This document shows, one piece after another, positions 5,361 through 62,932 of a stretch of 64,000 bases of DNA. Numbering within the stretch: the stretch's first letter is position 1; every line of letters starts with the position of its first letter. The position numbers were made by a program, and so were the translations under genes. The DNA is taken from the NCBI RefSeq assembly GCF_003086295.3, contig NC_092038.1, positions 102,083,837-102,147,836 of the forward strand. The letters are read 5' to 3'. Source of the stretch: Arachis hypogaea. Taxonomy: Eukaryota > Streptophyta > Magnoliopsida > Fabales > Fabaceae. Below the pieces are notes generated by a model. It worked only from the letters and a program-made list of their open reading frames with translations. It ran no database searches and was not told the DNA's origin.

Positions 5361-6637
5361 ATTGTTCGAGTTTGGACAACTGACGGTTCATCTTGTTGCT
5401 TAGATTAGGAAAAATTTATCTTCTTTTTTTTTGGTTTAAAGTCACTAAATTTGAGTCTTTTATTTTTTTTTGTCAAAAATCTTATTTTTCTTTATCAATC
5501 TTTAATTTTTCTTTGAGTCTTTTATTATTATTTTTGTTAAAATTTTAAAATTCTTATTTTCTTTTTCTATATTTTTTTGAAAATTTTTAATAAATAGATA
5601 AAAACCAATAAACTAATAATTGAGTCTTCTGTTTGAGTTTAATTTCATGTTTTATGTTTGGTGTCAATTGCATGTTTTTATTTTCCTTCAATTTTTTGAA
5701 TTGCATGTTTATATTTTTCTTCATATTTTTAATTACATGTTCTTAGTTCTTTCTTGATCTTCAAGTTGTTCTTGATAATTTCCTTTATTTTTTCTTTAAA
5801 TTTTCTTGTTTGGTGTCTTTTGTTATTTATCTTATACATTTTCGAATTATTAGAGTCCAAAGTATAAAATTTTTTTAAGTTTGGTGTTTTTTTTGTCCTT
5901 TTTTTGTGAAAAATTTTCAAAATTTGTTCTTGGTGTTCATCTTGATCTTCAAAGTGTTCTTGGTGTTCATCTGGACATTCAAAATTTTCTTGTTTGTTTT
6001 CTTTGTTTTGATCTAAAAATTCTAAATTTGGTGTCATTTTATTATTTTTCTCTTTCCTCATTAAATTCAAAAAATATCTTTTCCTTTATTTACTCATCAT
6101 TTTCGAATTTCTTAGGTTGACTTAGTCAAAATTTTTAAAATTTGGTAGTTTCTTGTTAGTCAAGTCAAAATTTTAATTTTTAAAATTTATCTTTTTTAAA
6201 TCTTTTTCAAAACAAATTCTTTTTCAATTTTCTTTTTATATTTTTCGAAAATCTTTTATAAAAATTTTCAAAATCCTTTTTCTTTTTTTTTAATTTTCGA
6301 ATTACTTGTCCTATTTTATTAGTTTGATTGAAAAATTTTAAGTTTGATGTTTTCTTGTTAAGAAAGTTTCAATCTCTAAAATTTTAAAATCGTATCTTTT
6401 TCAAAACTTCCTAACCACTTTTTCTCTCTTCATTTTTTGAAAATCCTCATCCACAATTTTTCAAATCCTTTTAATTAATTAATTAATTTAGTTTTCTAAT
6501 TTCTTTTATTTCCTTTTCTTTTCTTAATTTTTGAAACTTGCATAAATTTCTTTTTATTTACCTTATTTTAATTTCTTTAATAAAAAAAGGGGGATAAAAT
6601 TTTTATTTACAATCCACATCATCTCCCTTTCTCCATC
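5361..6637 (+). other. gag leader of element B, T-rich, with repeated TTTGGTGT motif
   Basis: About 1.3 kb of T-rich untranslated leader between primer site and gag. The motif (A)AGTTTGGTGT or close variants recurs near 5655, 5807, 5878, 6025 and 6140, plus two tandem TTCTTGGTGTTCATC units at 5929-5971. The same motif recurs in the leaders of F and G. No coding region is supported; the frame at 5881-6120 is low-complexity. Confidence 0.6.
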
Positions 6638-12248: not shown

Positions 12249-13285
12249 CAACACCAAACTTAATACTTGCTTGTCCCTAAGCAAGTCCTGAGTTATTTGA
12301 GAAGAAAGTATGAAACAAAAAGCAATTACATTGGCTATATTAGCAAGCATTTGAAGTTCATCAGAAGGGTTTTATGCAGAAGGTTGCAGCATCACTTTTT
12401 CATTCTTATCAGGTAGGATTATCACTTTTTCATTGCATCCATCAAACACTGCTATGGCCTCTTGTTATTCTTATGTCCTTGGCACTTTTTCCCTTCTTTG
12501 TTTTTCTTTTTCTTAGAGCTTCTTTGCTCCTTGTTTGCTCAGTGTCATGTGTTGCACAAGCCTTTGGCATTTTCTTTTTCTTATCAGTGCACTACACATA
12601 TCCACTACAGGCATTTTAGTTCACATTTCTTCTTGAGACATTGGTGCCCAGCACCTCTTTGTGTGACTAAATGTTTTGTATTTAGGTTGCTCTTGATAAT
12701 GGACTTTTGGTTGATAATCCCGGGTTAGTTAACCCAAGTTACCAAGTGTTGAAACACTCCTAAGAACCTATTCATCCAAGCATATCCTTAATACATAAAC
12801 ACCACAGGCATTTGTCTCAGAAGTTCAAACCATTGATGCCTAGCTTATTTTCTCAATTCTTTTTTGCTTTTTGGTTGCCCTTTTTAAGTGGCTTTTTCTT
12901 CTTCTTTTTCTTCCTTTTTCATGGCCAAAGACATTTATTCATCAAGATCCATAGACATTATTCAACTTCTACACAAAATAATAATTCTACACTCAATTTT
13001 CAGTGAGCTGACTAAACAATCAAGCATGCATACCACCACTTAATTCTACTTGATTTGTCACTAATTGAGCCAAGTTACTTTTGTTCAAACTTTTCTTTTA
13101 TTTTTGGAAACAGAACAAGCATGGCAAGCATTTGTTTAAGAAGGTGAAGTTATATCCAAATATCTAGGCATTCACTTTATTCAAAGCAGTAAACCAACAC
13201 TCCTACAAAATGACTTAAAATGAAAGAAAGCTCATAAAGACAATTCACAAACTATTATTTGATTATTAAGGAACGAGACCACCTC
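12249..13285 (-). other. 3' untranslated region of element C
   Basis: About 1 kb between the ORF2 stop and the 3' LTR with no credible protein; T- and C-rich tracts give spurious plus-strand frames. Next to the LTR, on the minus strand, a hairpin at 12265-12286 (stem ACTTGCTT, inner GGGA, stem AAGCAAGT) is followed by TTAAGTTTGGTGTTG and then the LTR. This is the C version of the hairpin-plus-motif module seen in the other elements. Confidence 0.7.
12265..12286 (-). promoter_or_regulatory. Pre-LTR hairpin module of element C
   Basis: Minus strand ACTTGCTTAGGGACAAGCAAG plus T: an eight-pair stem around AGGGAC. Relative to GTTGCTTGGGGACAAGCAAC in B, D and G, one stem pair has changed from G-C to C-G, so both sides altered together. 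It is followed by TTAAGTTTGGTGTTG and the LTR start. Confidence 0.6.
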
Positions 13286-14797: not shown

Positions 14798-15907
14798 TGG
14801 TTCTTTAGTTTTGGCAAGTGACAAGCTAAAGTTGATAAGGTGAAGTAAGAAGGTGTTGTTAGAAGTGTGGTGAGGTTGTTTTTCGGCAATAGATAGTTAT
14901 GCTATGATGAAAGGAAATGTGCAAGAAGGAGATTTGGTGGTGTGGAGCTCGTTCCCCAATTGGTTCTTTATAGTGCAAGCAAGTGAAAAATGGACGGCTA
15001 GGGTGATTTGTGAAGGATGGCTTGATGGTAAATATGTGAATCAGGGAGAAGGACGAATTGCTTTTAACTTTCTTGGAAGTATTCTGGGTGCATTAAGTTG
15101 TACATGTAGCTTTCTTTTCATGCAGAACTTCCTTTTCCCATGTGTTAGTTTCAAAGACTTATGAACTTCCTTTTTGACCAAGAACCGTACCTTCCCCCTG
15201 GTCTTTCTCCTCCATTCTTATCCTTCCTTTGTACCTGCACAAACAAACAAAATTGCTATCATTTTTCGGTCCATGTGAATAATGAATAGTACTTACACAT
15301 GTTTTTCATTCTTTTTGAATTGTAAATCAATGATTGTCTTCATGAGCTTATAACCGTGACTTTTGTGTGTATGCACACTTATTAATGGACACCAAACTTA
15401 GTGTTTGGTAATGTCTCCTGATGACATGAAATCCATGTTGGTTGTCCTTAATGAATGTGCATAATTCTAATAAATCATAGTCACTTTGGCTCTTTGATCC
15501 TAAGCAATTTTTCTACCTAAAGTAATTGAAATCAAAGTATTTAAGCATGCAATGGTATACTTGTCATGAATTTCTAAATCCAGAGGAACTTCTTGCCTTT
15601 CATTAACTGTGTTCAAAGAGGAACACCAAACTTAATGTTTGGTTATGCACCTTAAATGAAAGATTGAATACAATTTGATAAGATTTGGGGATGCCTTTAG
15701 GCACACCAAACTCAGAGACCAATTGTATTTTACATGCATTGTTTAGTGCACCTTATCAACAGTTGTCCTGAGGATTCAAGTTCATGCATAAGAAACCATG
15801 CTTTTATTAGATGCAGAGTAAAACAATAAAGAGTAAGGATACTAAAAACATGGGTTGCCTCCCATGAAGCGCTTCTTTAACGTCACTAGCTTGACGGTTG
15901 TCCCTTG
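14798..15907 (-). other. Inter-ORF spacer of element C
   Basis: About 1.1 kb between gag-protease and ORF2. On the minus strand it begins with the post-pol hairpin (15849-15866) and carries AAGTTTGGTGT motifs near 15392, 15626 and 15702. The first two sit inside small hairpins, CCAAAC and GTTTGG around TTAGT or TTAAT (15392-15408, 15626-15642). The GCGTTTAACGCC palindromes seen at this place in B, D, F and G are absent; in C the palindromes are in the LTR instead. The hairpin that precedes ORF2 elsewhere is not recognisable. Confidence 0.6.
15849..15866 (-). promoter_or_regulatory. Post-pol hairpin of element C (loop AGGCAA)
   Basis: Minus strand CATGGGAGGCAACCCATG: stem CATGGG/CCCATG around loop AGGCAA, preceded by AAAGAAGCGCTT. 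The loop is identical to the other elements while the stem differs in compensating pairs (GCTGGG in B and F, ATTGGG in D). Confidence 0.7.
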
Positions 15908-18718: not shown

Positions 18719-18977
18719 ACAAGAACACACCACAAGCAACAAACAAGTGGAATACTCTTGGTTAATGGAAGAGTATGGTTAGAGCAGTTGAGGAATTAAT
18801 TCAAATAGTTAGTGGGTCAGTGAGTTAGTGGCTTGAATTTAAAGGCATAAAGAAAGAAAGCAAATAACAGAGTGCAGAAATTAAAATTCAACAAGTAACT
18901 TGAACTAAATTAACAAAACAAGAAAAATGCTCAATCTAGTTAACTTCCAAATGGAGAATTGTCAATCGAAAACCAAT
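18719..18977 (-). other. Leader of element C
   Basis: About 260 bases between primer site and gag-protease ATG, much shorter than the leaders of B, F and G (540-1280 bases). No coding region is supported. Confidence 0.6.
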
Positions 18978-18994
18978 CCCCGGCAACGGCGCCA
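18978..18994 (-). promoter_or_regulatory. Primer binding site of element C, tRNA-Asp
   Basis: Minus strand TGGCGCCGTTGCCGGGG, an exact match to the complement of the tRNA-Asp 3' end, six bases from the 5' LTR. It fixes the element's orientation. Confidence 0.9.
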
Positions 18995-19000
18995 TAAACT

Positions 19001-23771: not shown

Positions 23772-23791
23772 TTTGCTTGAGGACAAGCAAA
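23772..23791 (+). promoter_or_regulatory. Pre-ORF2 hairpin module of element B
   Basis: TTTGCTTGAGGACAAGCAAA: eight-pair stem, loop AGGA, followed two bases later by TTTAAGTTTGGTGTG and, about 40 bases on, the ORF2 ATG. The same sequence pattern returns at 25018-25055 immediately before the LTR. Confidence 0.65.
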
Positions 23792-23845
23792 CCTTTAAGT
23801 TTGGTGTGATTCGCCATGATCACTGAGCTAAAACTCATCAAGATC

Positions 23846-23975: not shown

Positions 23976-25055
23976 GTTCTAACTTTGCCTTAACTCTGTG
24001 ATAACTGTTCTTATTAGGAATTTACCTTAGAAGTTATATATTAGTAGTAGTAATTTGTATCTCTACTTTGATTTTAATTCCAATTAAGTTATAATTTATT
24101 TTTCTCATCATCATCAAACATGAATAAGATAGTAGATTTTTAGAATAAAGAGGCAATATTTTTTCGAGTTCTTAATAAGAAAAATTCTAATTATTTATAT
24201 GTGGTGGCAATACTTTTTGTCTTCTGAATGAATGCTTAAACAGTGCATATTTTTTATCTTGTTGTTTATGAATGTTAAAATTGTTGGCTCTTGAAAGAAT
24301 GATGAAAAAGAGAAATGTTATTGATGATATGAAAAATCAAAAATATTGATTCTTGAAGTAAGAAAAAGCAGTGAAAAAGCAAAAGCTTGTGCAAAAAAAA
24401 ATAGAAAGAAAAAGAAAAAGCAAGCAGAAAAAGCCAATAGCCCTTAAAACTAAAAGGCAGGGGTAAAAAGGATCCAAGGCTTTGAGCATCAATGGATAGG
24501 AGGGCCCAAAGAAATAAATCCAAGCCTAAGCGGCTAAATCAAGCTGTCCCTAACCATGTGCTTGTGGCATGCAGTTCCAAGTGAAAAGTTTGAGACTGAG
24601 TGGTTAAAGTCGTGATCCAAAGCAAAAAGAGTGTGCTTAAGAGCTCTGGACACCTCTAACTGGGGACTTTAGCAAAGCTGAGTCACAATCTGAAAAGGTT
24701 CACCCAGTCATGTGTCTGTGGCATTTATGTATCCGGTGGTAATACTGGAAAACAAAATGCTTAGGGTCACGGCCAAGACTCATAAAAGTAGCTGTGTTCA
24801 AGAATCAACATGCTAAACTAGGAGAGTCAATCACACTATCTGAATTCTAAGTTCTTATGGATGCCAACCATTCTGAATTTCAAAGGATAAAGTGAGATGC
24901 CAAAATTGTTCAGAGGCAAAAAGCTACTAGTCCCGCTCATCTAATTAGAATCTGGGCTTCACTTAAAACTCTGAGATATTATTGCTTTTTGACTTTTTTT
25001 CCTCTTTTATTTATCCAGTTGCTTGGGGACAAGCAACGGTTTAAGTTTGGTGTTG
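23976..25055 (+). other. 3' untranslated region of element B, conserved non-coding block
   Basis: About 1.1 kb without a credible frame, yet closely alike in D (29617-30684), in the tail before 34408 and in G (46845-47813). The best-kept part runs from about 24440 to 24850 (GTCACAATCTGAAAAGGTTC, GTATCCGGTGGTAATACTGG). It ends in a hairpin (25018-25037) and TTTAAGTTTGGTGTTG touching the LTR. Confidence 0.65.
25018..25037 (+). promoter_or_regulatory. Pre-LTR hairpin module at the 25056 LTR
   Basis: GTTGCTTGGGGACAAGCAAC (eight-pair stem, loop GGGA), two bases, then TTTAAGTTTGGTGTTG and the LTR start TGATGAGCGG. This is where a polypurine tract should lie, yet the tract is not purine-rich. Confidence 0.65.
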
Positions 25056-26597: not shown

Positions 26598-27568
26598 AGA
26601 ATGCAAGGCCATTGATATAATCAAAATGGCCGAATCCAAAGAGGAAGGGGAGGACATGAATCCCAATAAGGAAGACCTCATGGGACGTCCCCCAGATAGA
26701 AAGGAGTTCCCTATTGAGGACCTAAAGGAATCTGAGGCTCATATAGAGACCATAGAGATTCCATTAAACTTCTTTCTGCCATTCATGAGCTCTGAGAACT
26801 ATTCTTCCTCTGAAGAGGATGAAGATGTAACTAAAGAGCAAGTTGCTCAATATCTAGGAGCCATCATGAAGCTGAATGCCAAGTTGTTTGGTAATGAGAC
26901 TTGGAAAGATGAACCTCCCTTGCTCATTAGTGAACTAAATACATGGGTTTAGCAAACTTTTCCTCAAAAGAAACAAGATCCTGGTAAATTCTTAATACCC
27001 TGTACCATAGGCACCATAACCTTTGAGAAGGCTCTGTGTGACCTGAGGTCAAGTATAAATCTTATGCCACTCTCTGTAATGGAAAAACTGGGTAATCTTT
27101 GAGGTACAAGCTGCAAGAATCTCATTAGAGATGGCAGACAAGTCAATAAAACAAGCTTATGGATTGGTAGAGGACGTGCTAGTGAAGGTTAAAGGCCTTT
27201 ACATCCCTGCTGATTTCATAATCCTAGACACTGGAAAGGATGAGGATGAATGCATCATCCTTGGAAGACCCTTCCTAGCTACAGCAGGAGTTGTGATTGA
27301 TGTTGACAGAGGAGAGCTAGTCCTTCAATTGAATGGGGACTACCTTGTGATAAAAGCTCGAGGATCTTCCTCTGCAACCATGGAGAGGAAGCATGAAAAG
27401 TTTCTCTCAATACAGAGTCAAACAAAGCCCCCAAAATCACCTCTAAGTTTGGTGTTGGGAGGCCACAACCAAACTCTAAGTTTGGTATTGAGAAGCCCCC
27501 ACATTCAAACTCTAAGTTTGGTGTTGGGAGGCCCTCATCATGCTCTGAACATCTGTGAAGCTCCATGA
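26598..27568 (+). pseudogene. gag-protease fragment of element D
   Basis: The frame starts directly at the LTR end with ECKAIDIIKMAESKEEGED, matching the late gag of element C (EECKAITILKEVSEEEG). It continues through an acidic linker (NYSSSEEDEDVTKEQVAQYLG) and, after a stop at 26950, the protease region [28 protein letters not shown], in which the catalytic DLGAS is changed to DLRSS. A short frame slip near 27100 precedes EMADKSIKQAYGLVEDVLVKVKG and [20 protein letters not shown]. The end holds three or four in-frame copies of CTCTAAGTTTGGTGTTGGGA (27439-27540). RT and integrase are absent: after protease the sequence passes directly to the post-pol hairpin. Gag is truncated at its 5' side. 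Confidence 0.8.
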
Positions 27569-28388: not shown

Positions 28389-28406
28389 TTGCTCGAGGTC
28401 GAGCAA
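28389..28406 (+). promoter_or_regulatory. Pre-ORF2 hairpin module of element D
   Basis: TTGCTCGAGGTCGAGCAA: seven-pair stem, loop AGGT. Against TTGCTTGAGGACAAGCAA in B the T-A pair has become C-G on both sides. TAAGTTTGGTATGG follows within five bases. Confidence 0.65.
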
Positions 28407-28461
28407 CATTCTAAGTTTGGTATGGTAAAAGAATAGCTTTTTTGTTTTTCCATAATCATTG

Positions 28462-29616: not shown

Positions 29617-30684
29617 GGTGGACTCATTCCTTAACTTCCTTGTTCTTATCTCTTTGTGTTTCGGTTTTATGCTATATATTTGTCTATGTTTTGAGTCTTT
29701 ACTACATGATCATTAGTATTTAGTAACTATGTCTTAAGGCTATGAATAATTCCATGAATCCTTCACCTTTCTTAAATGAAAAATGTTTTTAATACAAAAG
29801 AACAAGAAGTACATGAGTTTCGAATTCATCCTTGAAATTAGTTTAATTATATTGATGTGGTGACAATACTTTTTGTTTTCTGAATGAATGCTTGAACAGT
29901 GAATATTTTTGATCTTGTTGTTTATGAATGTTTAAATTGTTGGCTCTTGAAAGAATGATTAACAAAGAGAAATGTTATTGATAATCTAAACAATCATGAA
30001 ATTGATGCTTGAAGCAAGAAAAAGCAGTGAAAAAGAAAGAAGCTTACGAAAAAAAAGCAAGCAGAAAAAGCTAATAGCCCTTAAAACCAAAAGGCAAGGG
30101 TAAAAAGGATCCAAGGCATTGAGCATCAGTGGATCGCAGGGCCCAAGGAAATAAAATCCAGGCCAAAGCGGCTAAATCAAGCTGTCCCTAACCATGTCCT
30201 TGTGTCTTGAAGGTCCAAGTAAAAAGCTTGAGACTGAGTGGTTAAAGTCGTGATCCAAAACAAAAAGAGTGTGCTTAAGAGCTTTGGACACCTCTAACTG
30301 GGGCAAAGCTGAGTCACAATCTGAAAAGGTTCACCCAGTCATGTGTCTGTGGCATTTATGTATCCGGTGGTAATACTGGAAAACAAAGTGCTTAGGGCCA
30401 CGGCCAAGACTCATAAAAGTAGTTGTGTTCAAGAATCAACATACTTAACTAGGAGAATCAATAACACTATCTGAACTCTGAGTTCCTATGGATGCCAATC
30501 ATTCTAAACTTCTAAGGATAAAGTGAGATGCCAAAACTGTTCAGAAGCAAAAAGCCACAAGTCCCACTCATCTAATTAGAACTAATATTCATTGATATTT
30601 TGGGATTTATAGTATATTCTCTTCTTTTTATCCCATTTGATTTTCAGTTGCTTGGGGACAAGCAACAATTTAAGTTTGGTGTTG
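29617..30684 (+). other. 3' untranslated region of element D
   Basis: A further copy of the conserved non-coding block also present in B and G (GTGCTTAAGAGCTTTGGACA, GTATCCGGTGGTAATACTGG). It ends in hairpin GTTGCTTGGGGACAAGCAAC (30647-30666), AA, TTTAAGTTTGGTGTTG and the LTR. No gene seen. Confidence 0.65.
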
Positions 30685-33600
30685 TGATGAGCAGATAATT
30701 TATACGCTTTTTGACATTATTTTTAGGTAGTTTCTAGTAGGATCCAGCTACTTTTAGGGATGTTTTTATTAGTTTTTATGAAAAATTCACATTTCTGGAC
30801 TTTACTATGAGTTTGTGTATTTTTTTGTGATTTCAGGTATTTTCTGGCTGAAATTGAGGGACCTGAGCAAAAATCTGATAGGAGGCTGACAAAGGACTGC
30901 TAATGCTGTTGGATTCTGACCTTACTGCACTCGAAATGGAATTTCTGGAGCTACAAAACTTCAAATGGCGCGCTCTCAATTGCGTTGGAAAGTAGACATT
31001 TAGAGCTTTCCAGCAATATAAAATAGTCCATGCTTTATTCGAGTTTAGATGATGCAAACTGGTGTTCAACGCCAGTTTCATGCTACATTTTGGATTAAAA
31101 CGCCAGAAACACGTCACAAACCAGAGTTAAACGCAAAAAACACGTTACAACATGGCGTTTAACTCCAAGAGAAGCCTTTGCATGTGTAAAACTCAAGCTC
31201 AGCCCAAGCACACACCAAGTGGGCCCCGAAAGTGGATTTCTGCACTTAGACTTATTTCTGTAAACCCTAGTAACTAGTCTAGTATAAATAGAACTTTTTA
31301 CTATTGTATTAGACATCTTGGGATTATCTTTTGATCCTTTGATCACGTTTTGGAGGCTAGCCTCTCGGCCATGCCTGGACCTTGTTCTTATGTATTTTCA
31401 ATGGTAGAGTTTCTACACACCATAGATTAAAGGTATGGAGCTCTGCTGTACCTCGAGTATTAATGCAAAGTACTATTGTTCTATTCAATTCACGCTTATT
31501 TTTATTCTAAGATATCCATTCGCACCCAAGTACCTGATAAATGTGATGATTATGTGACGCTCATCACCATTCTCACTTATGAACGTGTGCCTGACAACCA
31601 CTTTCGTTCTACATGCAAATAAGCTTGAATAAATATCTCTTGGATTCCTTAATCAGAATCTTCGTGGTATAAGCTAGAATCCTGACAAACCCCAATTTGA
31701 CGGTTTGTTCTGTATTGAATTTAGAGTATTTTGATAACCTTTTGTCACATTTAGCTTATGAATTAGCATGGTTTTGTTATCTCTCCCATATTTGTGCTTA
31801 AGTATAAAAACATGCTTTTTAAGCCTTATTATTGATGAATTCTAATTTCTCTTTGATTCCATAAGATGCCTTGATGTGTTTGCTAGTAATTACAGGATTG
31901 AAATAGGCTAGGCATGGATCAAAGGAAGCAAGGAAGGAAGCATGCAAGTGGAGAGAAGCACAAAAAGCCAAAGAGTTGATCTCGGCCAAGCACGCGTACG
32001 CGCACAAGGCGCTCGCGCGCACATTGCGAAATAGGCCAAGGACGCGCACGCGTACCATGCGCGCACGCGCCGATGATGGCACATGCCCTCACTAATGCAG
32101 CACGTGCCTGGCGATTTTGGAAGGTTTCAGCAACCAACTTTGGCGCTAAAATGCATATAAGGGCCAAGGATTGAAGGGGATTGACAACTAACACAATTCA
32201 TTCATACATAGACACACACTCACTAGGATTAGTTTAGTTTTAGTTTCTAGAGAGAGAAGCTCTCACTTCTCTCTAGAATTAGAATTAGGATTAGGTTTAG
32301 GTTAATCTCTCTTCTTAGATCTATGTTTAATTCCTACTTTGATTCAATTTTCCTTTATCAATTCTCAATCTTCGTCTCCTCCTCTTTCTAGTTATGTGTT
32401 TTAATAATTGTAATTCTTCATTTTGTCTTGGATAGATTGTTGTTCCTTTATTTCCTTTCAATAATGCAATTTGAGGTAATTCATGATAATTGTGATTTCC
32501 TTGATTGTTGGTGTTAATTCTTTGCAATAATTGTTGTTAGATTCTATTCTTGTTGTCAATTCACCATGCTTTTCCTTTATGCCTTCCAAGTGTTTGATGA
32601 AATGCTTGGTTGGATTTTAGTATAGATTTTGTTCCTCTTGGCTTTGGTTGAGTAATTAGTGACTCTTGAGTTATCTAATTCCTTTGTTGATTGATAATTA
32701 GAAGTTGCTAATCGATTTGAATATCTCTAAAGCTAGTCTTCCCTTTAGGAGTTGATTAGGACTTGAGGAATCAAATTGATTCATCCACTTGACTTTCCTC
32801 CATGGTTAGAGGTTGACTAAGTGGGAGCAATGAACAATTCTCATCACAATTGAGAAAGATAACTAGGATAGGACTTCTAGTTCTCATACCTTACCAAGAG
32901 TCTTTTATAGTTGTTAGTTTATTTTCATTGCCATTTACTTTCATGCCTCTTATCAAAACCCCAAAATAACTCACAACCAATAACAAGACACTCTATTGTA
33001 AGTCCTAGGGAGAACGACCCGAGGTTCAATACTTCGGTTTATAAATTCTAGGGGTTTGTACTAGTGACAAACAACTTTTTGTACGAAAGGATTATTGTTT
33101 GGTTTAGAGACTATACTTTACAACGAGATTTTATTAGTGAAATTCTAAACCATCAAAAATCCAATCGTCAAATCCATTGGCAGCATTCTTGAGAATCTGA
33201 AAAGTCTAAACCTTGTCTGTGGTATTCTGAGTAGGATTCAGGGATTGAATGACTGTGACGAGCTTCAAACTCGCGACTGTATGGCGTGGTGACAAACGCA
33301 AAAGAATAGTAAATCCTATTCCTGCATGATCGAGAACCGACAGATGATTAGCCGTGCGGTGACAGCGCACCTGGACCATTTTCACTGAGAGGACGAACGG
33401 TAGCCATTGACAACGGTGATCCCCCAACATACAGCTTGCCATGGAAAGAAGTAAGAATGATTGGATGAAAGCAGTAAGAAAGTAAAGATTCAGAAGGAAC
33501 ACAGTATCTTCATGCGCTTATCTGAAATTCCCACCAATGAATTACATAAGTATCTCTATCTCTATTTTATGTTTTATTTATCTTTATATTCGAAAACCAT

Positions 33601-33782
33601 TATAACCATTAGAATCCGCCTGACTGAGATTTACAAGATGACCATAGCTTGCTTCATACCAACAATCTCCGTGGAATCGACCCTTACTCACGTAAGGTTT
33701 ATTACTTGGACGACCCAGTACACTTGCTGGTTAGTTGTGCGAAGTTGTGAAGAATGTGTGTGAACCATAGTATTGTGTACCA
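30685..33782 (+). repeat. Internal LTR inside composite element B, split by a solo LTR
   Basis: Begins TGATGAGCAGATAATTTATA at 30685, holds TATAAATAG at 31283, is interrupted at 31683-33170, and ends TTGTGTACCA at 33782. About 1605 bases without the insertion. It is followed by a decayed primer site, so on its right side it behaves as a 5' LTR, while on its left it follows a normal 3' untranslated region. Confidence 0.75.
31683..33170 (+). mobile_element. Solo LTR I (Ty3/gypsy-type)
   Basis: 1488 bases, TGACAAACCCC...AATCGTCA, flanked by AATCC at 31678-31682 and 33171-33175, and inserted into the LTR begun at 30685. No internal region, so it is the product of LTR-LTR recombination. It contains a CpG-dense patch (31980-32085, CACGCGTACGCGCAC). 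The segment near 33000 (CTAGGGAGAACGACCCGAGG) is the complement of a block shared with J, K and H, so all belong to one LTR superfamily. Confidence 0.85.
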
Positions 33783-34407
33783 AGTTTTTGGAGCCATTGC
33801 TAGGGGTTGTTCGAGTTGTGAAAAGTATGAGTCACAATTTTGCCTATCAGAGGGCCCAAAGGAATAAAATTCTGACCTAAGCAGCTAAATCAAGTTGTCC
33901 CTAACCATGTGCTTGTGTCATGAAGGCCCAAGTGAAAAGCTTGGACTGAGTGGTTAAAGTCGTGATCCAAAGTAAAAGAGTGTGCTTAAGAACTCTGGGC
34001 ACCTCTAACTAGGTACTCTAGCAAAGCTGAGTCACAATCTGAAAAGGTTCACCCAGTTATGTGTCTGTGGCATTTATGTACCCGGTGGTAATACTGGAAA
34101 AACAAAATGCTAAGGGTCACAGCCAAGACTCAAAGAAGCTATGTTCAAGAATCTATCAAAGTTAAACTAGGAAAATCAATAACCTCATATGCATGATGAG
34201 TTCTGAAAGAAGCCAATCATTTTGAGTTTCAAGGGATAAAGTGAGATGCCAAAACTATTCAGAAGCAAAAACCTATAGCCCCGCTCATCTAATTTGAATT
34301 TGAGCTTCATTAAAGACTCTGAGATTTTATTGCACCATAATATTCTTTTTATCCTATTTTATTTGTCTAGTTGATTGGGGACAAGCAACAATTTAAGTTT
34401 GGTGTTG
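33783..34407 (+). other. Decayed primer site fused to a 3' untranslated tail
   Basis: TGGAGCCATTGCTAGGG (33789-33805) is a tRNA-Asp primer site with four mismatches. Some 20 bases later the sequence jumps to the conserved 3' block (from about 33840), so gag, pol and ORF2 have been deleted. It ends with hairpin GTTGATTGGGGACAAGCAAC (34370-34389, one stem pair lost), TTTAAGTTTGGTGTTG and the outer LTR. Confidence 0.7.
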
Positions 34408-39719: not shown

Positions 39720-41213
39720 ACCTCCCTACACTTAAACATTAGCATGTCCTCATGCTAAGCTCAAGTGAAGCTATAGAGGAGTGAAGAGGAATGATAGAGA
39801 GTATGCAATGCAACCTATCTATGCGGATGCAACTACATGCAAAATGTTTCTTCCTACTTGGTTAAAAGTAAATAAGTTCTCCAAGACAAAAATAATTCAA
39901 ATTCCACTAATTCAAATCATATAGTGAAAACAAGTGAACTTGTAAGAAGATAGCTCATGAAAGCAGGGAACATAGAATCAAGCGTTGAACCCTCACTGGT
40001 AGTGTATGTGCACTCTAATATCTCTAATGTATAGGGTAATTCACTCTACTCTTCTTTAGTCATACTTTCTAAACTTTGTTCTTCATCTAACCAATCAACA
40101 AATATTTAGTATACCAATGCAAACATCATGAGGTCTTTTCAAGGTTGTAATGGGGCTGAGGTAAAGGTAAGGATGTATATATAAGGCTAAGTGAGCTAAC
40201 AAAGTGAATCCTTGCTTAGTCTAAGATCTCACCTAGCATACACACTTTATATAATTTCAAAGTTCTTTACCTAGCTACCCAAATTTTTCCACTTTTGTAT
40301 TACATGCTCATGCACCAAATTTATTTTTGAATTTTATCCCATGTGCATTGGTTCTTTTTATTTTGCATTGGGGTAATTTTTGTATCCCCTTATTTAATTA
40401 CTTAAATTTTTTTGATGCACATGGTAATTTAATTTATTTTGATTTCACATGAGCATGCTTCCCAAACCTTGAAATAACTTATTCAATTTAATTCCCTTTT
40501 TTCCTATCATCCTATGTTCCCATAAAATTCCCCATACTTAAATTATACACAATATCTATCTTAAGCTTACCAAGGATTCAACTTGGGATTTTTAATTTGT
40601 TTTTCTGCTTAAGGCTAGTCATGTGGTCATAAAATAGAAGAGGGGGTCAAAAAGGCTCAAAGGGGCTAACAAAGGTGATTGAAAGGGTATGCTATTTGGG
40701 ATAAGTGAGCTAATAATCAAATGATGGCCTCAATCATATGCAAGCATGTAAATACACTAAATAATGGACATATAGAATGGAACAAAGCAAAGATTGTAAT
40801 TATAGTGAAGAAAACACACAAGAATAAAAGTTTATGGTTAAATAATGTAACCATGTAATTAGGCTCAAAATCTCACAGGTTGTGTGTTCTTTGGCTCAAA
40901 AACCATGTTCCAAATACAACTTCAAACAAATTTAACACAAAAAATTTTGATTTTAAATTAGTGAGATTCTTCAAAATAAGGTCTTTAGAAGAAATTTATT
41001 ATTTTTTAACCAAGTAGAATATGCATAAAATCAAACAAACATGCATTCAAATATGCAAATGCAACAATGAACAAACAAAGAAAATAGAGTATTGGTGTTG
41101 AAAAAAAGGTAACTAACCCCTGGAAGTCGGTATCGACCTCCCAACACTTAAAGATTGCACCATCCTCGGTGCATGCTAAGATGTGCAAGTGGATGGGGGT
41201 TGTGGTTCCTCAG
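39720..41213 (-). other. Internal 3' region of element J with two hairpin-polypurine modules
   Basis: Non-coding. On the minus strand, module 1 next to the LTR is hairpin TTAGCATGAGGACATGCTAA (39739-39758), TG, then TTTAAGTGTAGGGAGGT (39720-39736) touching the LTR. Module 2, about 1.4 kb upstream, is hairpin TGCACCGAGGATGGTGCA (41156-41173) with TTTAAGTGTTGGGAGGT just after it (41136-41153). Between them lie AT-rich stretches; I see no ORF2-like frame. Confidence 0.6.
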
Positions 41214-42775: not shown

Positions 42776-43690
42776 ATTGTTTGAGTTTGAACAACTGACG
42801 GTGAATCTTGTTGCTTAGTTAGGAAAAATTTGTCTTTTTGGTTTAGAGTCACTAGAATTGCATCTTTTATTATCCCTTTTAAAAACTTTTTCTTCAAAAA
42901 TATTATTTTTCTTTATTAACTGTTAGTTTTTCATTGAGTCTAGTTGCATGTTTTAAGTTTAGTGTCCTTTGTGTTTTTGTCATCAAAAAATTTTTATCTG
43001 TTCAATCTTTGCATTTGTTAAATGTGTCTATTTTCTTGGGAATAGTTGCCCCTTTGAGTTTTCTTTTTAAAATCTTTTTCAAAAATAATTTTTCTTTGAT
43101 TAAATCTTGTGCCAAACTTTAAGTTTGGTGTTCTCTTGTTAATTTTTCTTTAATTTTCGAAAATTTATTGTGGTTTTCTAAAAATTTTAAGTTTGGTGTT
43201 CTTTCTTTTGTTCTTGGTGTTCTTGTGAGTCTTCAAAGTGTTCTTGAGTCTTCTTTGTGTTTTGATCTTAAAATTTTTATGTTTGGTATTCCTTGGTGTT
43301 TTCCCTCCAAAATTTTCAAAAGCAAGGAACATTAGATCTAAAAATTTTAAGTCTTGTGTCTTTTGTGTGTTTTTCTCTTTCATCATAAAATTCAAAAATA
43401 AAAAATATCCTTTCTAACTAATTTTAAGCAAATATTTCGAAATTTTTTTTAAAAATTCAGATTTCAATTTCCAAAATTTTTTAATCATTTCCTTTAAAAA
43501 AAATTTCACATCTTTTTCAAAAATATCCTAAACACTTTCTCTCTCCTTACTTTTTTTCAAAATTTTTCAAAAAAATAATTTCAAATTTTTTTATTATTTT
43601 TTATTTTATTTTATTTTGTTATTTCGAAAATTATTTTTCTTATATAATAAAATAAATAAAATAAATCCACGTAATCTCCCATTCTCTATT
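42776..43690 (+). other. Leader of element F
   Basis: T-rich untranslated leader with TTTAAGTTTGGTGTTC at about 43118 and 43186 and TTTATGTTTGGTATTCC at about 43278. No coding region supported. Confidence 0.6.
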
Positions 43691-45313: not shown

Positions 45314-46844
45314 TGGTGCACGAAATTGCAATCACACTTTTGCAACTCCGCACAACTAACCAGCAAGTGTACTGGGTCTTCCAAGTAATACCTTGCGTGA
45401 GCAAGGGTCGATCCCACAGAGATTGTCGGCTTGAAGCAAGCTATGGTTATCTTGTAAATCTTAGTCAGGATATCAGAAATTATCAGGATTGATTGTGAAA
45501 AGCAAAAGAACATGAAATGATTACTTGTTTTGCAGTAATGGAGAATAGGTTGAGGTTTGGAGATGCTCCATCTTCTGAATCTCTGCTTTCCTACTGTCTT
45601 CTTCTTCAAACACGCAAGTCTCCTTCCATGGCAAGCTGTATGTAGGGTTTCACCGTTGTCAATGGCTACCTCCCATCCTCTCATTGGAACGATTCCTAAT
45701 GCCCTGTCACGGCACGGCATTCCATCTGTCGGTTCTCAATCAGGCCGGAATAGAATCCAGTGATTCTTTTGCGTCTGTCACTAACGCCCCGCCTTCAGGA
45801 GATTGAAGCACGTCACAGTCATTCAATCATTGAATCCTACTCAGAATACCACAGACAAGGTTTAGACCTTCCGGATTCTCTTGAATGCCGCCATCAGTCT
45901 AGCTTATACCACAAAGATTCCGGTTAAAGAATCCAAGAGATAACTACTTAATCTAAGGTAGAACGGAGGTGGTTGTCAGTCACACGTTCGTGATTGAGAA
46001 TGATGATGATTGTCACGGATCATCACATTCATCCGAATTAAGAACAAGTATTATCTTAGAATGGAAGCAAGCATGATTGAATGAGAAACAGTAGTAATTG
46101 CATTAATCCATCAAGACACAGCAGAGCTCCTCACCCCCAACCATGGGGTTTAGAGACTCATGCTGTGGAAGAAAACATGTAAAAATGTCATAAGGTCATC
46201 AAAAGGTTGCATAGCGTCTGATACAATGTCAAAAGATCCTATAAATAGTAAACTAGTGTCCTAAGGTTTACAGAAATGAGTAAATGACAGAAAAATCCAC
46301 TTCCGGGCCCACCTGGTGTGTGCTTGGGCTGAGCAATGAAGGAATTTCGTGTAGAGACCTTTTCTGGAGTTAAACGCCAGTTCTCATGCCAGTTTGGGCG
46401 TTTAACTCCAAATTTTATGCCAGTTCCGGCGTTTAACGCTGGAATTTCTGTAGGTGACTTTGAGCGCCGGTTTGGGCCATCAAATCTTGGGCAAAGTATG
46501 GACTATTATATATTGCTGGAAAGCCCAGGATGTCTACTTTCCAACGCCATTGAGAGCGCGCCAATTGGGCTTCTGTAGCTCCAGAAACTCCGCTTCGAGT
46601 GCAGGGAGGTTAGAATCCAACAGCATCTGCAGTCCTTTTTGGTCTCGGAATCAGATTTTTGCTCAGGACCCTCAATTTCAGTCAGAAAATACCTGAAATC
46701 ACAGAAAAACACACAAACTCATAGTAAAGTCCAGAAAAGTGAATTTTAACTAAAAACTAATAAAAATATACTAAAAACTAACTAAATCATACTAAAAACA
46801 TACTTAAAACAATGCCAAAAAGCATACAAATTATCCGCTCATCA
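45314..46844 (-). repeat. 3' LTR of element G
   Basis: Plus strand TGGTGCACG...GCTCATCA. Differences from the 5' LTR include ACTCCGC/ACTCAGC, GTCTTCC/GTCGTCC, CCACAAAG/CCACGAAG and GCCATTGAG/GCCGTTGAG. Confidence 0.9.
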
Positions 46845-47813
46845 CAACACCAAACTTAAATTGTTGCTTGTCCCCAAGCAACTGAAAATAAAAATAGGAT
46901 AAAAAGAAGAGAATATACTATAGACTCCAAAATATCAAGGAAACATAGCTCCAATTAGATGAGCGGGACTAGTAGCTTTTTGCCTCCGAACAGTTTTGGC
47001 ATCTCACTCTATCCCTTGAAGTTCAGAATGATTGGCATCTATAAGAACTCAGGACTCAGATAGTGTTATTGATTCTCCTAGTTAAGCATAATGATTCTTG
47101 AACATAGCCAGTGTATGAGTCTTGGCTGTGGCCCAAAGCACTCTGTCTTCCAGTATTACCACCGGATACATACATGCCACAGACACATAATTGGGTGAAC
47201 CTTTTCAGATTGTGACTTAGCTTTGCTAAAGTCCCCAATTAGAGGTGTCCAGGGTTCTTAAGCACACTCTTGTTGCCTTGGATCACAACTTTATTTCTTT
47301 CTTCTTCTTTTTTTTTTCTTTTTTTTTTTTTTCGAAATCTCTTTTTTTTTTCTTTGTATCCACTGCTTTTTCTTGCTTCAAGAATCAATCTAATTATTTT
47401 TAGATCCTCAATAACAATTCTCTTTTTTTCTCATTCTTTCAAGAGCCAACACTTTTTAACATTCTCAAAACAACAATTTCAAGAGACATATGCACTGTTC
47501 AAGCATTCATTCAGAAAGCAAAAAGTATTGTCACCACATCAAGCTAGTTCAGCTAGTTTCAATGATAAATTTTGAAATCCTGTACTTCTTGTTCTTTTGT
47601 GATTAAAGCATTTTTCATTTAAGAGAGGTGATGGATTCATAGGACATTCATATCTTTAAGGCATAAAATTTTTAATTTTATTAATTATGGATTAAAACAA
47701 GGCTCAAAAAATAGATATAGGATGAAACTAAAAATAAAAATAGAAAACAAAACAAAGGAAAAAAAAAAGCAAACATAGGCTCCTAATGATAGAGGTTTTC
47801 ACAGAGTTAGGAC
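46845..47813 (-). other. 3' untranslated region of element G
   Basis: The complement of the conserved block of B and D (CCAGTATTACCACCGGATAC, GAACCTTTTCAGATTGTGAC). It includes a T-rich run at 47290-47350. The pre-LTR hairpin is at 46863-46882 (minus GTTGCTTGGGGACAAGCAAC), followed by TTTAAGTTTGGTGTTG and the LTR. Confidence 0.7.
46863..46882 (-). promoter_or_regulatory. Pre-LTR hairpin module of element G
   Basis: Stem GTTGCTTG/CAAGCAAC, loop GGGA, identical to B and D at the same place, 18 bases from the LTR. Confidence 0.65.
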
Positions 47814-48926
47814 TCAACAACCTTGATTTTGAGAAGTAGATGCTCCCTCAGCTTGAGAGGAGAACTTTTGGCGTTTCAATTCTTGGATTTCACGCCCCTG
47901 CTTCTCTTGCTCCTTCAGCAATTTGCAGAGCATGCAGTTCTGATTCTGCTGTTCTTCCTTCAGTTGCTCCATAGTCTCTTGCAGCTTGTTAATAGATGCT
48001 TCTAGGCTGGACCAGTAGTCAATTCTTGGGAATTCAGGGAGGAATTCCTGCGCCCTCCTCTTGATGGAGTTGTCTTGCACTTGTCCTTCCATTGACTTCT
48101 TGGTGATTGGGTGTTCAATGGGTATGAACTCATCTACTCCCATCTTCACCCCAGCCTCTTTACAGAGCAAGGAAATCAAGCTTGGGTAGGCCAATTTGGC
48201 TTCAGTGGAATTCTTATTTGCAATTGTGTAAATCTCACAAGCAATCACATGATGAACCTCCACTTCTTTTCCAAGCATAATGCAATGAATCATCACTGCT
48301 CTCTTGATGGTGACCTCAGAACGGTTGCTAGTGGGCAATATGGAACGCCCAATAAAGTCTAGCCAACCTCTTGCAATTGGCTTGAGGTCTCCCCTCTTGA
48401 GTTGGTTTGGGACACCCTTTGAATTGGTTATCCGCTTAGTCCCAGGGAGGCATATGTCCTCTAGAACTTGATCCAACCCTTTATCTACTCTCACCATCCT
48501 CCTATTGAAGGAGTCAGGATCATCTTGCAGTTGAGGTAGTTTGAAGATTTCTCTTATTTTGTCCAGATGGAAGTACATAACTTTCCCTCTGACCATGGTT
48601 CTGTAGGTATGGTAAGCAGTTCCAGTCATTCTCTGCTTATCTGTCAACCACAGATTAGAGTAGAATTCCTGAACCATGTTCCTTCCAACCTTTATTTCAG
48701 GATTGGTCAGAACTTCCCATCCTCTGTTTCGAATTTGCTCTTGGATCTCCGGATATTCATCTTCTTTCAGATCAAATTTGACTTCCGGGATCACTGACCT
48801 CAGACCCATTATTTTGTGATAATGGTCTTCATGTTCTTTGGTTAAGAACTTCTCTTGATTCCAAAGATTCTTTGGATTAGTCTCTTTCTTTCCTCTTGAG
48901 TTAGTTTGTTTTCCCTTGGGAGCCAT
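47814..48926 (-). CDS. ORF2 of element G, plant transposon-type protein of unknown function
   Basis: An open frame of 370 aa from ATG 48926 (MAPKGKQTNSRGKKETNPK). The N-terminus is basic. The conserved domain (residues about 25-265) holds KIMGLRSVIPEVKFDLKEDE, NRGWEVLTNPEIKVGRNMV, TMVRGKVMYFHLDKIREIF, LDQVLEDICLPGTK, LKRGDLKPIARGWLDFIGRS, SEVTIKRAVMIHCIMLGKEV and VHHVIACEI. A predicted coiled coil follows (SINKLQETMEQLKEEQQNQN, LKEQEKQGREIQELKRQK) with a Ser-rich tail. It belongs to the PF20167-like group. It occupies the env position but shows no signal peptide, membrane helix or glycosylation-rich ectodomain. Function unknown; nucleic-acid or Gag binding is a guess. Confidence 0.82.
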   Translation of the reverse strand: MAPKGKQTNSRGKKETNPKNLWNQEKFLTKEHEDHYHKIMGLRSVIPEVKFDLKEDEYPEIQEQIRNRGWEVLTNPEIKVGRNMVQEFYSNLWLTDKQRMTGTAYHTYRTMVRGKVMYFHLDKIREIFKLPQLQDDPDSFNRRMVRVDKGLDQVLEDICLPGTKRITNSKGVPNQLKRGDLKPIARGWLDFIGRSILPTSNRSEVTIKRAVMIHCIMLGKEVEVHHVIACEIYTIANKNSTEAKLAYPSLISLLCKEAGVKMGVDEFIPIEHPITKKSMEGQVQDNSIKRRAQEFLPEFPRIDYWSSLEASINKLQETMEQLKEEQQNQNCMLCKLLKEQEKQGREIQELKRQKFSSQAEGASTSQNQGC

Positions 48927-48980
48927 GATCTTGATAGATCTTGGCTTAGTGATCACGGAAAAGCACACCAAACTTAGAGG

Positions 48981-49002
48981 TTTTGCTTGTCCTCAAGCAA
49001 AA
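48981..49002 (-). promoter_or_regulatory. Pre-ORF2 hairpin module of element G
   Basis: Stem TTTTGCTTG/CAAGCAAAA, loop AGGA on the minus strand, then CCTCTAAGTTTGGTGTG. Confidence 0.65.
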
Positions 49003-49347
49003 AGAAAAGAAAGAAGAGAAGAGAGAGAGAGAGGAAGAGGAAATTCGAATGGTGTGAGGAATGAGGGGTGAGAAACGTTCATTTATAGAGTGGGGGGAGG
49101 AGAATTTCGAAAACAAAAGAGAGATTTGAAAGGAGATTTGAGGAGATATGGAAAGAAATTGAGAAAAGGGTGAGTTTTTGAAGAAGATTTGGGATTGATT
49201 TGAAATAGATTTGAAGAATGGTTTTGATTTGTGAAGATTTGAAAGTGAATGATGAAAGGTTGAAGTGCATTTATGTAGAAGAGTATGGGTAAAAAGAGGA
49301 AAGTTTGAAAAAAAATTGAGTTGAAAACAAAAGTGTGGTCCCCCCAC

Positions 49348-49650
49348 CTTTCTGGCGTTAAACGCCCAGAATGGCACCCATTCTGGCGTTTAACGCCCAT
49401 ATGGCACCCCTTTTGGGCGTTTAACGCCCAGCCAGGTGCCCTGGCTGGCGTTAAACGCCAGAAAACCTTCCTCACTAGGCGTTTTTCTGAACGCCCAGTG
49501 ATGCTGCACACCTGGCGTTAAACGCCCAGAATGGTGCCCATTCTGGCGTTTAACGCCCAAAATGGCACCATTCCTGGCGTTAAACGCCCAGAATGGTACC
49601 CATTCTGGCGTTTAACGCCCAAAATGCCCCTTACTGGCGTTTTTTCGCCA
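49348..49650. repeat. GCGTTTAACGCC palindromic array of element G
   Basis: About nine units alternating CTGGCGTTAAACGCCCAG and TGGCGTTTAACGCCCA, with larger mirror pairs such as CATTCTGGCG...CGCCCAGAATG, so that neighbouring units can also pair with each other. One unit is interrupted (GGCGTTTTTCTGAACGCCC). Confidence 0.85.
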
Positions 49651-49757
49651 GTAAGCTCATTTTCTCTGCTTTTTGAGCTGAATCCTTCTGTAACTCTGTG
49701 AATTCCTTCATTTTTGATATTTGCCTCTGTAGGAACTAATCATATAACCTCCTAATG

Positions 49758-49775
49758 ACTGGGTTGCCTCCCAGC
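49758..49775 (-). promoter_or_regulatory. Post-pol hairpin of element G (loop AGGCAA)
   Basis: Minus strand GCTGGGAGGCAACCCAGT; five Watson-Crick pairs plus a closing G-T wobble, about 40 bases after the pol stop, preceded by AAAGAAGCACTT. Confidence 0.7.
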
Positions 49776-49816
49776 AAGTGCTTCTTTACTGTCTTTAGCT
49801 GGACTTTCACTGAGAA

Positions 49817-54823: not shown

Positions 54824-55362
54824 AATGGACAAGAGGGAAATGATAATGATTGCAAAGAGATAAATGTTGTTTTTTTTTTTTGAATAAACGAAAAAATAAA
54901 ATAAAACAAAGGAAAATTAAAGTAAAAATTCGAAAATCAAAAAGAAAATAAAATCAAAGCAAATTGAAAACTGAATCAATTAGTTAATTAAAAAGATTTT
55001 GAAAACAGCAATTAGAAAGATATGATTGAAAAATTTTTATGAAAAAGATTTGATTTTTAAAAAGAGGAAAGAGAAAAACACAAAAAGACACCAAACTTAA
55101 AATTTTAGAAAATCAAACACGAAATTTTCGAAAATTTTTAAGGGAAAAACACAAAGAGGACACCAAACTTAGAATTTTTATGAATCAAAAAGGGACTAAG
55201 AACATGCAAAAATCGAAAATTAAAAGAAAAATAAAAGCATGCAATTGACACCAAACTTAGAATATGAAACTAGACTCAACTAAAAGACTCTAAACCAACA
55301 AAAATAAAACAGTCCTAATCTAAGCAACAAGATAAACCGTCAGTTGTCCAAACTCAACAATT
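54824..55362 (-). other. Leader of element G
   Basis: About 540 bases, A-rich on the plus strand, with CACCAAACTTA (minus TAAGTTTGGTG) at about 55089, 55163 and 55250. No coding region. Confidence 0.65.
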
Positions 55363-55379
55363 CCCCGGCAACGGCGCCA
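55363..55379 (-). promoter_or_regulatory. Primer binding site of element G, tRNA-Asp
   Basis: Minus strand TGGCGCCGTTGCCGGGG, exact, six bases from the 5' LTR. Confidence 0.9.
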
Positions 55380-55385
55380 AAAACT

Positions 55386-61852: not shown

Positions 61853-62932
61853 AAGCTCAGTAATAGTCCAGCTAAAGACAATAATGAAGCGCTTGCTGGG
61901 AGGCAACCCAGCCATTAAGAAAGCTTATTTTTCAATTAATTGATTTTTATAGGTTCATATTAATTTTCTTCAAGGTAAAATGGCAATTGCATGAGTTCAC
62001 AGAGTCACAGAAGGATTCAGAGGATAAAACAGCAAAAAGAAGCTCACTGGTATAAAAAAGCCAGTAAGAGCTGTTTTGGGCGTTCAACGCCCAAAAAAAG
62101 CATCTACTAGGCGTTCAACGCCAGTAGAGATAGTCATCTGGGCGTTAAACGCCAAAAAGAAGCATCTTCTGAGCGTTAAATGCCAAAAAGAAGCACTTTC
62201 TGGGCATTGAACGCCAGATTTACAGCATCCTGGGCGTTCAGAAAAATGCCCAGTGACAAAGGAATTCCTGGCGTTTAACTCCAGCCAGAAGCAATAGCTG
62301 GGCGTTAAACGCCCAGGAGAACCTACAGATGGGCGTTAAACACCTAAAACATGCAGCGTTTGGGCGTTTAACGCCAGGATTGTGGGGAGGAGGTGAATTC
62401 GTTTTCAACTCAAATCTTTTCCATTTTTCATGTTTCAATTCATGATTTCTGGCATAAACATGTTACAAACTCCCATCTTTCAAACTTCAATTCCAAAAAT
62501 TTTTAATCCTAATTTCTAAAATTCCTTTTCAAAGATATCAAATGTATCTTAATTCATAAACACAAATTTTTTTTCTAATCCTCTTCAACTTCTTTTCAAA
62601 TCTTTTTAAATTCTTTTCAAACTCATCATAATTTCTTCTCAAAATTTAGATTTATCTTTTTCAAATATCTTTCATAACTTTTTAATTTTAAATTATATCT
62701 TTTTCCTATCATACTTATCTTTTACAAACCATATCTTCTATGTTATCTTTTTTCAAAATTTTTGAAAACCCACCCCTCCCTTTAAATCCACATTCGGCTT
62801 CCCTCCTCTCATCCACCATTCGACATTAGCTCTCCTTCTATCCCTCTCCTTTCCTTTCTTTTGCTTGAAGACAAGCAAACCTCTAAGTTTGGTGTGTTTA
62901 TCCATGATCACTAAGCCATACCCACTAAGATC
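61853..62932 (+). other. Spacer of element F between pol and ORF2
   Basis: Post-pol hairpin GCTGGGAGGCAACCCAGC (61895-61912), palindromic array (about 62070-62385), T-rich tract, and pre-ORF2 hairpin TTTGCTTGAAGACAAGCAAA (62860-62879) followed by CCTCTAAGTTTGGTGTG. No gene. Confidence 0.7.
62070..62385. repeat. GCGTTTAACGCC palindromic array of element F
   Basis: About nine units (GGGCGTTCAACGCCC, GGGCGTTAAACGCC, GGGCGTTTAACGCCAG) with AAAAGAAGCA spacers. It parallels 23150-23495 unit by unit, including the odd GGGCGTTCAGAAAAATGCCC. Confidence 0.8.

Follow-up and report, generated by a model that had tools for sequence, protein, structure and literature searches.

Results

Elements of the locus and their hairpin-tract modules

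The 64,000-nt window, that is, the whole stretch of DNA analysed here, lies on contig C3 of a 2.56-Gb genome and has the structure of a nest of elements. The letters B, C, E, I, K, and X for these elements are our own and may differ from those of the first-pass annotation of this DNA, whereas J is the same in both. On the minus strand, the hairpin TTAGCATG-AGGA-CATGCTAA and the tract TTTAAGTGTAGGGAGGT of element J run directly into its 3′ LTR, and a second hairpin with the tract TTTAAGTGTTGGGAGGT lies upstream of this copy (Table 1). Both J strings that the first-pass annotation had placed about 1.4 kb apart are indeed present, at a measured distance of 1,416 bases, and apart from the two J tracts nothing in the entire window matches TTTAAGTGTNGGGAGGT without a mismatch. 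At 41214, the 5′ LTR of element I cuts into J, whose own coding part lies outside the window; in its relative J2 (76% identity to J in 1,414 aligned columns), pieces of RNase H, integrase, and PF20167 are found upstream. A J-like LTR without adjoining internal sequence (57200-58698, minus strand) sits inside the pol region of element I and is probably a solo LTR.

The clearest element of the nest is K (45314-56916, minus strand), with LTRs that are 99.35% identical and a 5-bp duplication, CTTGG. Its putative PBS, TGGCGCCGTTGCCGGGG, lies 6 nt after the LTR; a tRNA-Asp PBS 5 bp after the LTR is described for Diaspora and Calypso in a passage of PMC1142308. Pfam searches on pieces of K give the order gag, protease, RT, RNase H, integrase, and then ORF2, which corresponds to PF20167, a family also present in a sunflower Athila ORF (passage of PMC11728184); K thus shows the gag-protease-RT-RNase H-integrase order with an extra ORF that is a trait of the Athila/Calypso lineage. 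Many inverted words resembling GGCGTTTAACGCCAG occur in the K linker (48971-49816, minus strand) and in the LTRs. Element E (9957-21292, minus strand) has LTRs that are 99.6% identical, a gag-protease frame, and a PF20167 ORF, and no RT or integrase in the frames scanned, so that it looks non-autonomous. At 30685-33783, an LTR is preceded by a priming module and followed by a PBS, and the next module and LTR come soon after, at 34408, which suggests unequal recombination and deletion.

On the LTR side, the layout consists of a short hairpin with an RRGR loop followed by TTTAAGT and a tract that is G-rich in the J type and G/T-rich in the K/B type. In K/B-type elements, the LTR-side module is TTGCTTG-GGGA-CAAGCAA with TTTAAGTTTGGTGTTG, and the module before ORF2 is TTGCTTG-AGGA-CAAGCAA, followed in C by TTTAAGTTTGGTGTG and in K by TCTAAGTTTGGTGTG; element I has the latter tract as well, with AAGA as the loop. 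The module of B has no internal partner within 4 kb.

Table 1. Hairpins, tracts, and tract repeats located in the window
Feature	Position	Strand	Remarks
J LTR-proximal hairpin TTAGCATG-AGGA-CATGCTAA	39739..39758	-	hairpin scan
J LTR-proximal tract TTTAAGTGTAGGGAGGT	39720..39736	-	abuts 3′ LTR starting TGATAAACC at 39719
J internal hairpin TGCACCG-AGGA-TGGTGCA	41156..41173	-	hairpin scan
J internal tract TTTAAGTGTTGGGAGGT	41136..41152	-	
K LTR-proximal hairpin GTTGCTTG-GGGA-CAAGCAAC	46863..46882	-	
K LTR-proximal tract TTTAAGTTTGGTGTTG	46845..46860	-	abuts 3′ LTR at 46844
K internal hairpin TTTTGCTTG-AGGA-CAAGCAAAA	48981..49002	-	before ORF2
K internal tract TCTAAGTTTGGTGT	48965..48978	-	ORF2 ATG at 48926
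C (in B nest) internal hairpin TTTGCTTG-AGGA-CAAGCAAA and tract TTTAAGTTTGGTGT	23772..23807	+	
C LTR-proximal hairpin and tract TTTAAGTTTGGTGTTG	25018..25055	+	LTR starts 25056
X internal hairpin TTGCTCG-AGGT-CGAGCAA and tract TCTAAGTTTGGTAT	28389..28423	+	
X LTR-proximal hairpin and tract	30647..30684	+	LTR starts 30685
B LTR-proximal hairpin (one mismatch) and tract	34370..34407	+	LTR starts 34408
I internal hairpin TTTGCTTG-AAGA-CAAGCAAA and tract TCTAAGTTTGGTGT	62860..62895	+	before ORF2
E LTR-proximal hairpin ACTTGCTTA-GGGA-CAAGCAAGT and tract ATTAAGTTTGGTGTTG	12249..12286	-	
K leader, three tract copies	55088..55261	-	no RGGA hairpin
I leader, five tract copies	42952..43359	+	up to 2 mismatches; no RGGA hairpin
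B leader, four tract copies	5651..6350	+	up to 2 mismatches; no RGGA hairpin
E linker, three tract copies	15389..15716	-	between gag-protease frame and ORF2
X linker, three tract copies	27442..27524	+	at least one behind another hairpin, AGGC loop

Base pairing of the hairpin and its spacing to the LTR

The window contains 12 hairpins with an AGGA or GGGA loop and a score of at least 6, compared to a mean of 1.8 and a largest count of 5 in 50 first-order shuffles, so that chance occurrence can be rejected; a tract follows within 0-3 nt in nine of the 12. When any 4-nt loop was allowed beside 267 tract-like seeds in 264 kb (the window and L006-L025, with 2 kb masked), 38 hairpins reached the threshold, 32 of which have the loop GGGA, AGGA, AGGG, AGGT, AAGA, or AGGC. 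Moreover, a scan on loop and spacing that ignored pairing (window, L006-L033, and L001) yielded 44 distinct sites, with at least five of the six inner pairs formed in 24, and five scrambled seeds subjected to the same scan yielded 26 sites, a single one of which is paired.

The stems vary by compensatory substitutions, and the RRGR loop stays constant. When 12 modules (11 distinct) are aligned, pairing holds in 93.2% of the cells, changes on both sides are seen in six of the eight pairs, and two-sided changes occupy 15 cells against a shuffled mean of 4.0; sliding the partner by 1-3 columns lowers pairing to 27-49%. In a wider set of 40 of the 51 distinct modules, which were chosen for at least 4/6 pairs and are accordingly biased upward, each of pairs 2 to 6 occurs as three or more standard pair types, and pairing holds in 225 of 240 inner cells; with the 3′ arms shuffled, the mean is 137 and the highest count 168. 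The counts of both sets include the shared ancestry of the copies. RNA folding of seven stretches of 77-81 nt forms the local hairpin in five, and an alternative fold has lower energy in the K internal copy and in the related contig L001; the fold z-scores are -3.7 for J at the LTR and -2.2 for K at the LTR, and reach 0.0 for L001.

Conservation of the hairpin through an encoded protein only is unlikely because the same design occurs beside the LTR, where the DNA is non-coding, and because the frame leading to the tract TAA reads the J-type hairpin in two frames in different copies (DGTEDGAK in 4, ECTEDGANF in 8, and the MHRGRC kind in 8 of 20 loci, the identity of the true ORF2 frame being shown in part).

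The distance to the LTR is narrowly set. Among 39 LTR-proximal tracts of the forms sought, many of them copies of the same families, 38 carry the hairpin, with the loop ending 25-27 nt before the LTR (25 nt in 8, 26 in 14, and 27 in 16 sites, in a scan that allowed 24-29 nt and left out two further tracts at locus edges); in the single exception, L020:856, the hairpin contains two mismatches. The stem itself stops 16-21 nt short of the LTR, and at six sites in the window the tract lies directly against the LTR start.

Conservation and lineage-specific forms

At both sites, the hairpin and tract form a conservation peak in the K/B-type families. Among nine K/X-type internal copies, mean pairwise identity is 0.77-0.95 over the hairpin (two bins) and the start of the tract (its first bin), compared to 0.62-0.65 in the CT-rich bins just before the hairpin, 0.13-0.56 at -200 to -41, and 0.42-0.52 from the tract to the start of ORF2, where identity rises. 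Similarly, 13 LTR-proximal copies show 0.86-0.98 against 0.39-0.75 in the flanks. The three J-type internal copies reach 0.87-1.0 but say little, because the upstream flank of J is an inserted element and the downstream flank ranges from 0.17 to 0.93. Between J and J2, 18 of 20 internal tract positions and 25 of 26 LTR tract positions are alike, which is not a significant excess, given that 16.5% of the 20-column windows reach 0.9.

Each lineage has a single form of the tract at both sites, TTTAAGTTTGGTGT in one and TTTAAGTGTNGGGAGG in the other. A third form is found in L001, as ACATTG-AGGA-CAATGT followed by TTTAAGTTGGGGGGAGG at 8961; L001 also carries TCTAAGTTGGGGGGTGG at 6238, which is 140 nt downstream of the pol frame and lacks this hairpin. 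The RT-region match of L001 is 61% identical to that of K, and its LTR is not recognizable in the contig. L001 and L002 (NZ_QPKJ02000021.1 and NZ_JABGCL010000066.1) are contigs of two bacterial assemblies that encode a plant-like Ty3/gypsy polyprotein, and these retroelement contigs are probably plant contamination. The hairpin scan found no module in L003 and L004, and scans of viral contigs found no relatives or matches. The two copies have changed in concert, as the first-pass annotation held, only between lineages: in four of four J-type loci, chosen for A or T at the variable LTR-side base, an A there corresponds to a G in the internal copy, and homogenization of the two copies within an element is rejected on these grounds.

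Frequency and position of the internal copy

Within 264 kb (the window and the next 200 kb), there are 21 LTR-proximal modules (20 from the scan and that of J2, with a bulged stem, added by hand), 10 of which have an internal hairpin and tract 1,246-2,310 nt upstream. The other 11, which have no internal hairpin module within 4 kb, comprise two E-type, six TGATGACA-type, and one TGATGCG-type module, the one at L024:1104, and the one at 34392, where the PBS is only 0.6 kb upstream and the internal part seems to have been deleted. E-type and TGATGACA-type elements show no internal hairpin module within 4 kb; instead, in seven of their eight copies, three plain tracts lie upstream at 1.2-1.5 kb (at 3.1-3.5 kb in the E of the window), and the remaining copy, L006:3216, has no such tracts upstream.

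Genome-wide, there are at least 8,156 matches to the J-type internal module, against 0 for the reversed control, and at least 351 to the J-type LTR module when its variable base is A or T, against 0 for the control; these lower bounds result from amplification rather than independent events. The AGGA hairpin is present in all eight J-type LTR-proximal loci studied (the first listed on C1), and four of these show an internal module, hairpin included, at 1,412-1,461 nt in flanks that end at 1.5 kb. Reciprocally, nine of 20 internal J-type loci have an LTR module at 1,388-1,492 nt, and two more have one at the locus edge (L034 and L037); the hairpins of these 20 loci prove nothing, because the search pattern demands part of the stem. 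An internal copy of the LTR-proximal tract, a trait of extra and central polypurine tracts (PPTs), is thus found in 10/21, 4/8, and 9/20 cases in the three sets.

The first-pass annotation assigned the two copies to the same positions, before ORF2 and before the LTR, in all lineages. This is so in the K/B type, with the internal module of K, C, and I about 40 nt before the ORF2 ATG and behind a CT-rich stretch (in K, also behind the TATA-like TATAAATG), but in the J relatives the internal copy is located at the 3′ end of ORF2. J2 matches PF20167 with an E-value of 4.5e-30 (L011:5569-6645), and its frame into the tract TAA, which ends in LTDGTEDGANP, overlaps this match in another frame; in J3, an ORF2-like stretch is in register with the frame into the TAA, with a stop between them (both read as they stand, with nothing mended). 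Back from the TAA, the frame is open for 19-125 codons in all 20 internal J-type loci. No copy was found between the integrase and ORF2 of J2 in a search for the tract and hairpin words. One base before the J2 ORF2 ATG (L011 near 6574, minus strand) is CTTTTTCAG / CTTTCTCTTTCCTTTTTCAG, which resembles a 3′ splice site; ORF2 may be made from spliced RNA.

Composition and repeats of the tract

Against the LTR, the K/B-type tract TTTAAGTTTGGTGTTG has seven purines among 16 bases, so that the term polypurine tract does not describe it; the J-type tract has 11 of 17, with a run of GGGGAGG or AGGGAGG. Neither has the purine-rich composition typical of extra and central PPTs; for known PPTs, the relevant passage of PMC3185511 names only single pyrimidines.

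Copies of the tract with up to two mismatches also occur on the sense strand of the leaders of K (3), I (5), and B (4), and in linkers. Over 58 kb, there are 27 sense matches and 1 antisense match (shuffle mean 1.3), to which the K internal copy, straddling a region border, is additional; none lies in gag-pol and none on the sense strand of the LTRs. The leader tract TYTAAGTTTGGTGT before gag occurs on the sense strand only and in a shared T-rich context, and palindromic contexts such as CCAAACTTTAAGTTTGG are found in the I leader.

Discussion

The duplicated cis module is real and is conserved in at least the K/B-type families. We propose, at a probability of about 0.5, that Athila-type Ty3/gypsy elements use it as a structured site of plus-strand priming and that selection maintains a second copy internally. 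RNase H would leave the LTR-abutting tract as the RNA primer, the hairpin would help to define this primer, and the internal copy would be kept because it also starts plus-strand DNA, as extra and central PPTs are thought to do elsewhere. A second priming site is favored by the LTR-abutting position, the stem covariation, the conserved internal copy, the kept LTR distance, and the lineage-specific tract form, as well as by the precedent of an extra PPT in Athila4 and Calypso (passage of PMC2829016). Against the priming interpretation stand the copies of the tract in the leaders, where a second start makes little sense; the low purine content of the K/B-type tract; the 11 of 21 modules that lack an internal hairpin module; the missing homogenization within elements, with no significant excess between J and J2; and the lower-energy alternative fold in the K internal copy and L001. 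Of the duplicated hairpin and priming tract envisaged in the first-pass annotation, the duplication, the lineage-specific form, and the K/B-type conservation hold, whereas the K/B-type tract is not polypurine and the tract is not confined to the two sites but recurs in leaders.

The internal copy might alternatively be a relic of an event in which shuffling or capture placed a 3′ region or ORF2 between two 3′ ends and the old priming module fell idle. Such an origin, which we regard as unlikely, would fit the different places of the internal copy relative to ORF2 in the two lineages, its absence from several elements, and the TCGATA that follows the J-type internal tract and resembles the LTR start TTGATA; furthermore, the 8,156 matches do not show selection, because many copies can descend from a few masters. 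An idle module would, however, be hard to square with the conservation peak over the hairpin and tract in the nine K/X-type internal copies and with the compensated stem changes at internal sites. It is somewhat less likely still that the hairpin and tract are an RNA signal apart from priming, involved in Gag binding, packaging, dimerization, or RNA processing, with an LTR-side copy that merely overlaps the primer. Leaders are the expected location of packaging signals, and both the sense-strand tract copies in the K, I, and B leaders and the palindromic contexts in the I leader point in this direction; the fixed spacing of 25-27 nt to the LTR, the lack of the hairpin in the leader copies, and the absence of J-type tracts from J-type LTRs and from the L006-L025 scan, apart from the two module sites and unrelated matches, point away from it.

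We consider it improbable that the internal module serves the 5′ side of ORF2 as a promoter component, splice acceptor, or translation leader. The position about 40 nt before the ATG in K, C, and I, behind the CT-rich stretch and, in K, the TATA-like sequence, would suit such a function. Nevertheless, the J-type module lies at the 3′ end of ORF2, and J2 has no tract or hairpin words between integrase and ORF2 and has CTTTTTCAG one base before the ATG. Because the internal copy changes its place relative to ORF2, a signal for ORF2 expression is disfavored and is rejected as a general explanation. What the internal copy retains is its distance from the LTR rather than a position relative to ORF2, a pattern that favors a function in reverse transcription.

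Plus-strand primer recognition is usually tied to purine-rich RNA/DNA, and in the HIV-1 RT, RNase H trails the polymerase by about 18 nt. With the hairpin base 16-21 nt before the LTR, we can speculate, although this is doubtful, that the RGGA hairpin is a ruler at whose base RT pauses, putting RNase H at the junction of the tract and the LTR. RT pausing before the PPT cut has been hypothesized for HIV-1 (passage of PMC3185654). If the ruler exists, primer ends would be set more by RNA structure than by purine content, K/B-type elements could prime from a mostly non-purine tract, and the hairpin and tract would constitute a portable primer module copied to an internal site. In these abundant plant elements, whose tracts need not be purine-rich, one can directly test whether primer ends can be set by RNA structure and, through the duplicated hairpin and tract, whether plant retrotransposons use two plus-strand starts.

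Comparison with known systems

An internal duplicate of the tract would, according to the first-pass annotation, be notable for plant Athila-type elements; an extra PPT has already been reported in the linkers of Athila4 from Arabidopsis and Calypso from soybean (Wright and Voytas, 2002, as cited in PMC2829016). These env-like-containing Ty3/gypsy elements likewise carry another PPT-like tract, located downstream of pol and upstream of the 3′ LTR, and the present elements appear to belong to the same lineage. The account of Athila4 and Calypso in the citing paper, through which the comparison is made, mentions no hairpin in the passages concerned. The second tract is thus of an already known kind in Athila/Calypso-type elements. 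Sireviruses, as described in the same source, also have several identical tracts upstream of the 3′ LTR, with a dyad structure at the terminal one; however, they are Ty1/copia elements in which the inverted repeat encloses the PPT and the LTR start and the upstream PPTs lack the dyad, whereas in the present elements a small hairpin precedes both tract copies.

PPTa of the beet chromovirus Bongo3 is an additional PPT over the stop codon of an ORF, as in the J type, but it overlaps the gag-pol stop rather than that of ORF2, is confined to a single chromovirus family, and is described in the relevant part of PMC3605345 with no mention of a hairpin. The central PPT of HIV-1 and PPT2 of Ty1 are also internal copies of the 3′ PPT (passages of PMC2829016 and PMC5371799); they differ in that they lie in coding pol, are purely purine-rich, and were shown by experiment, whereas priming here is inferred. 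Ty3, for which the corresponding passage of PMC5371799 knows no central PPT, resembles the present elements in that its PPT is part of a base-paired stretch of genomic RNA, but there the PPT itself pairs, with lower probability, and the part of PMC11381356 concerned mentions no dedicated upstream hairpin. In a limited literature search, which mostly stopped short of full texts, no hairpin before the PPT of Athila-type elements was described, and the portion of PMC2410132 on Athila that was covered contains nothing on a PPT, polypurine, or hairpin. Against this background, the covarying hairpin at a fixed distance from the LTR, duplicated together with the tract, looks new.
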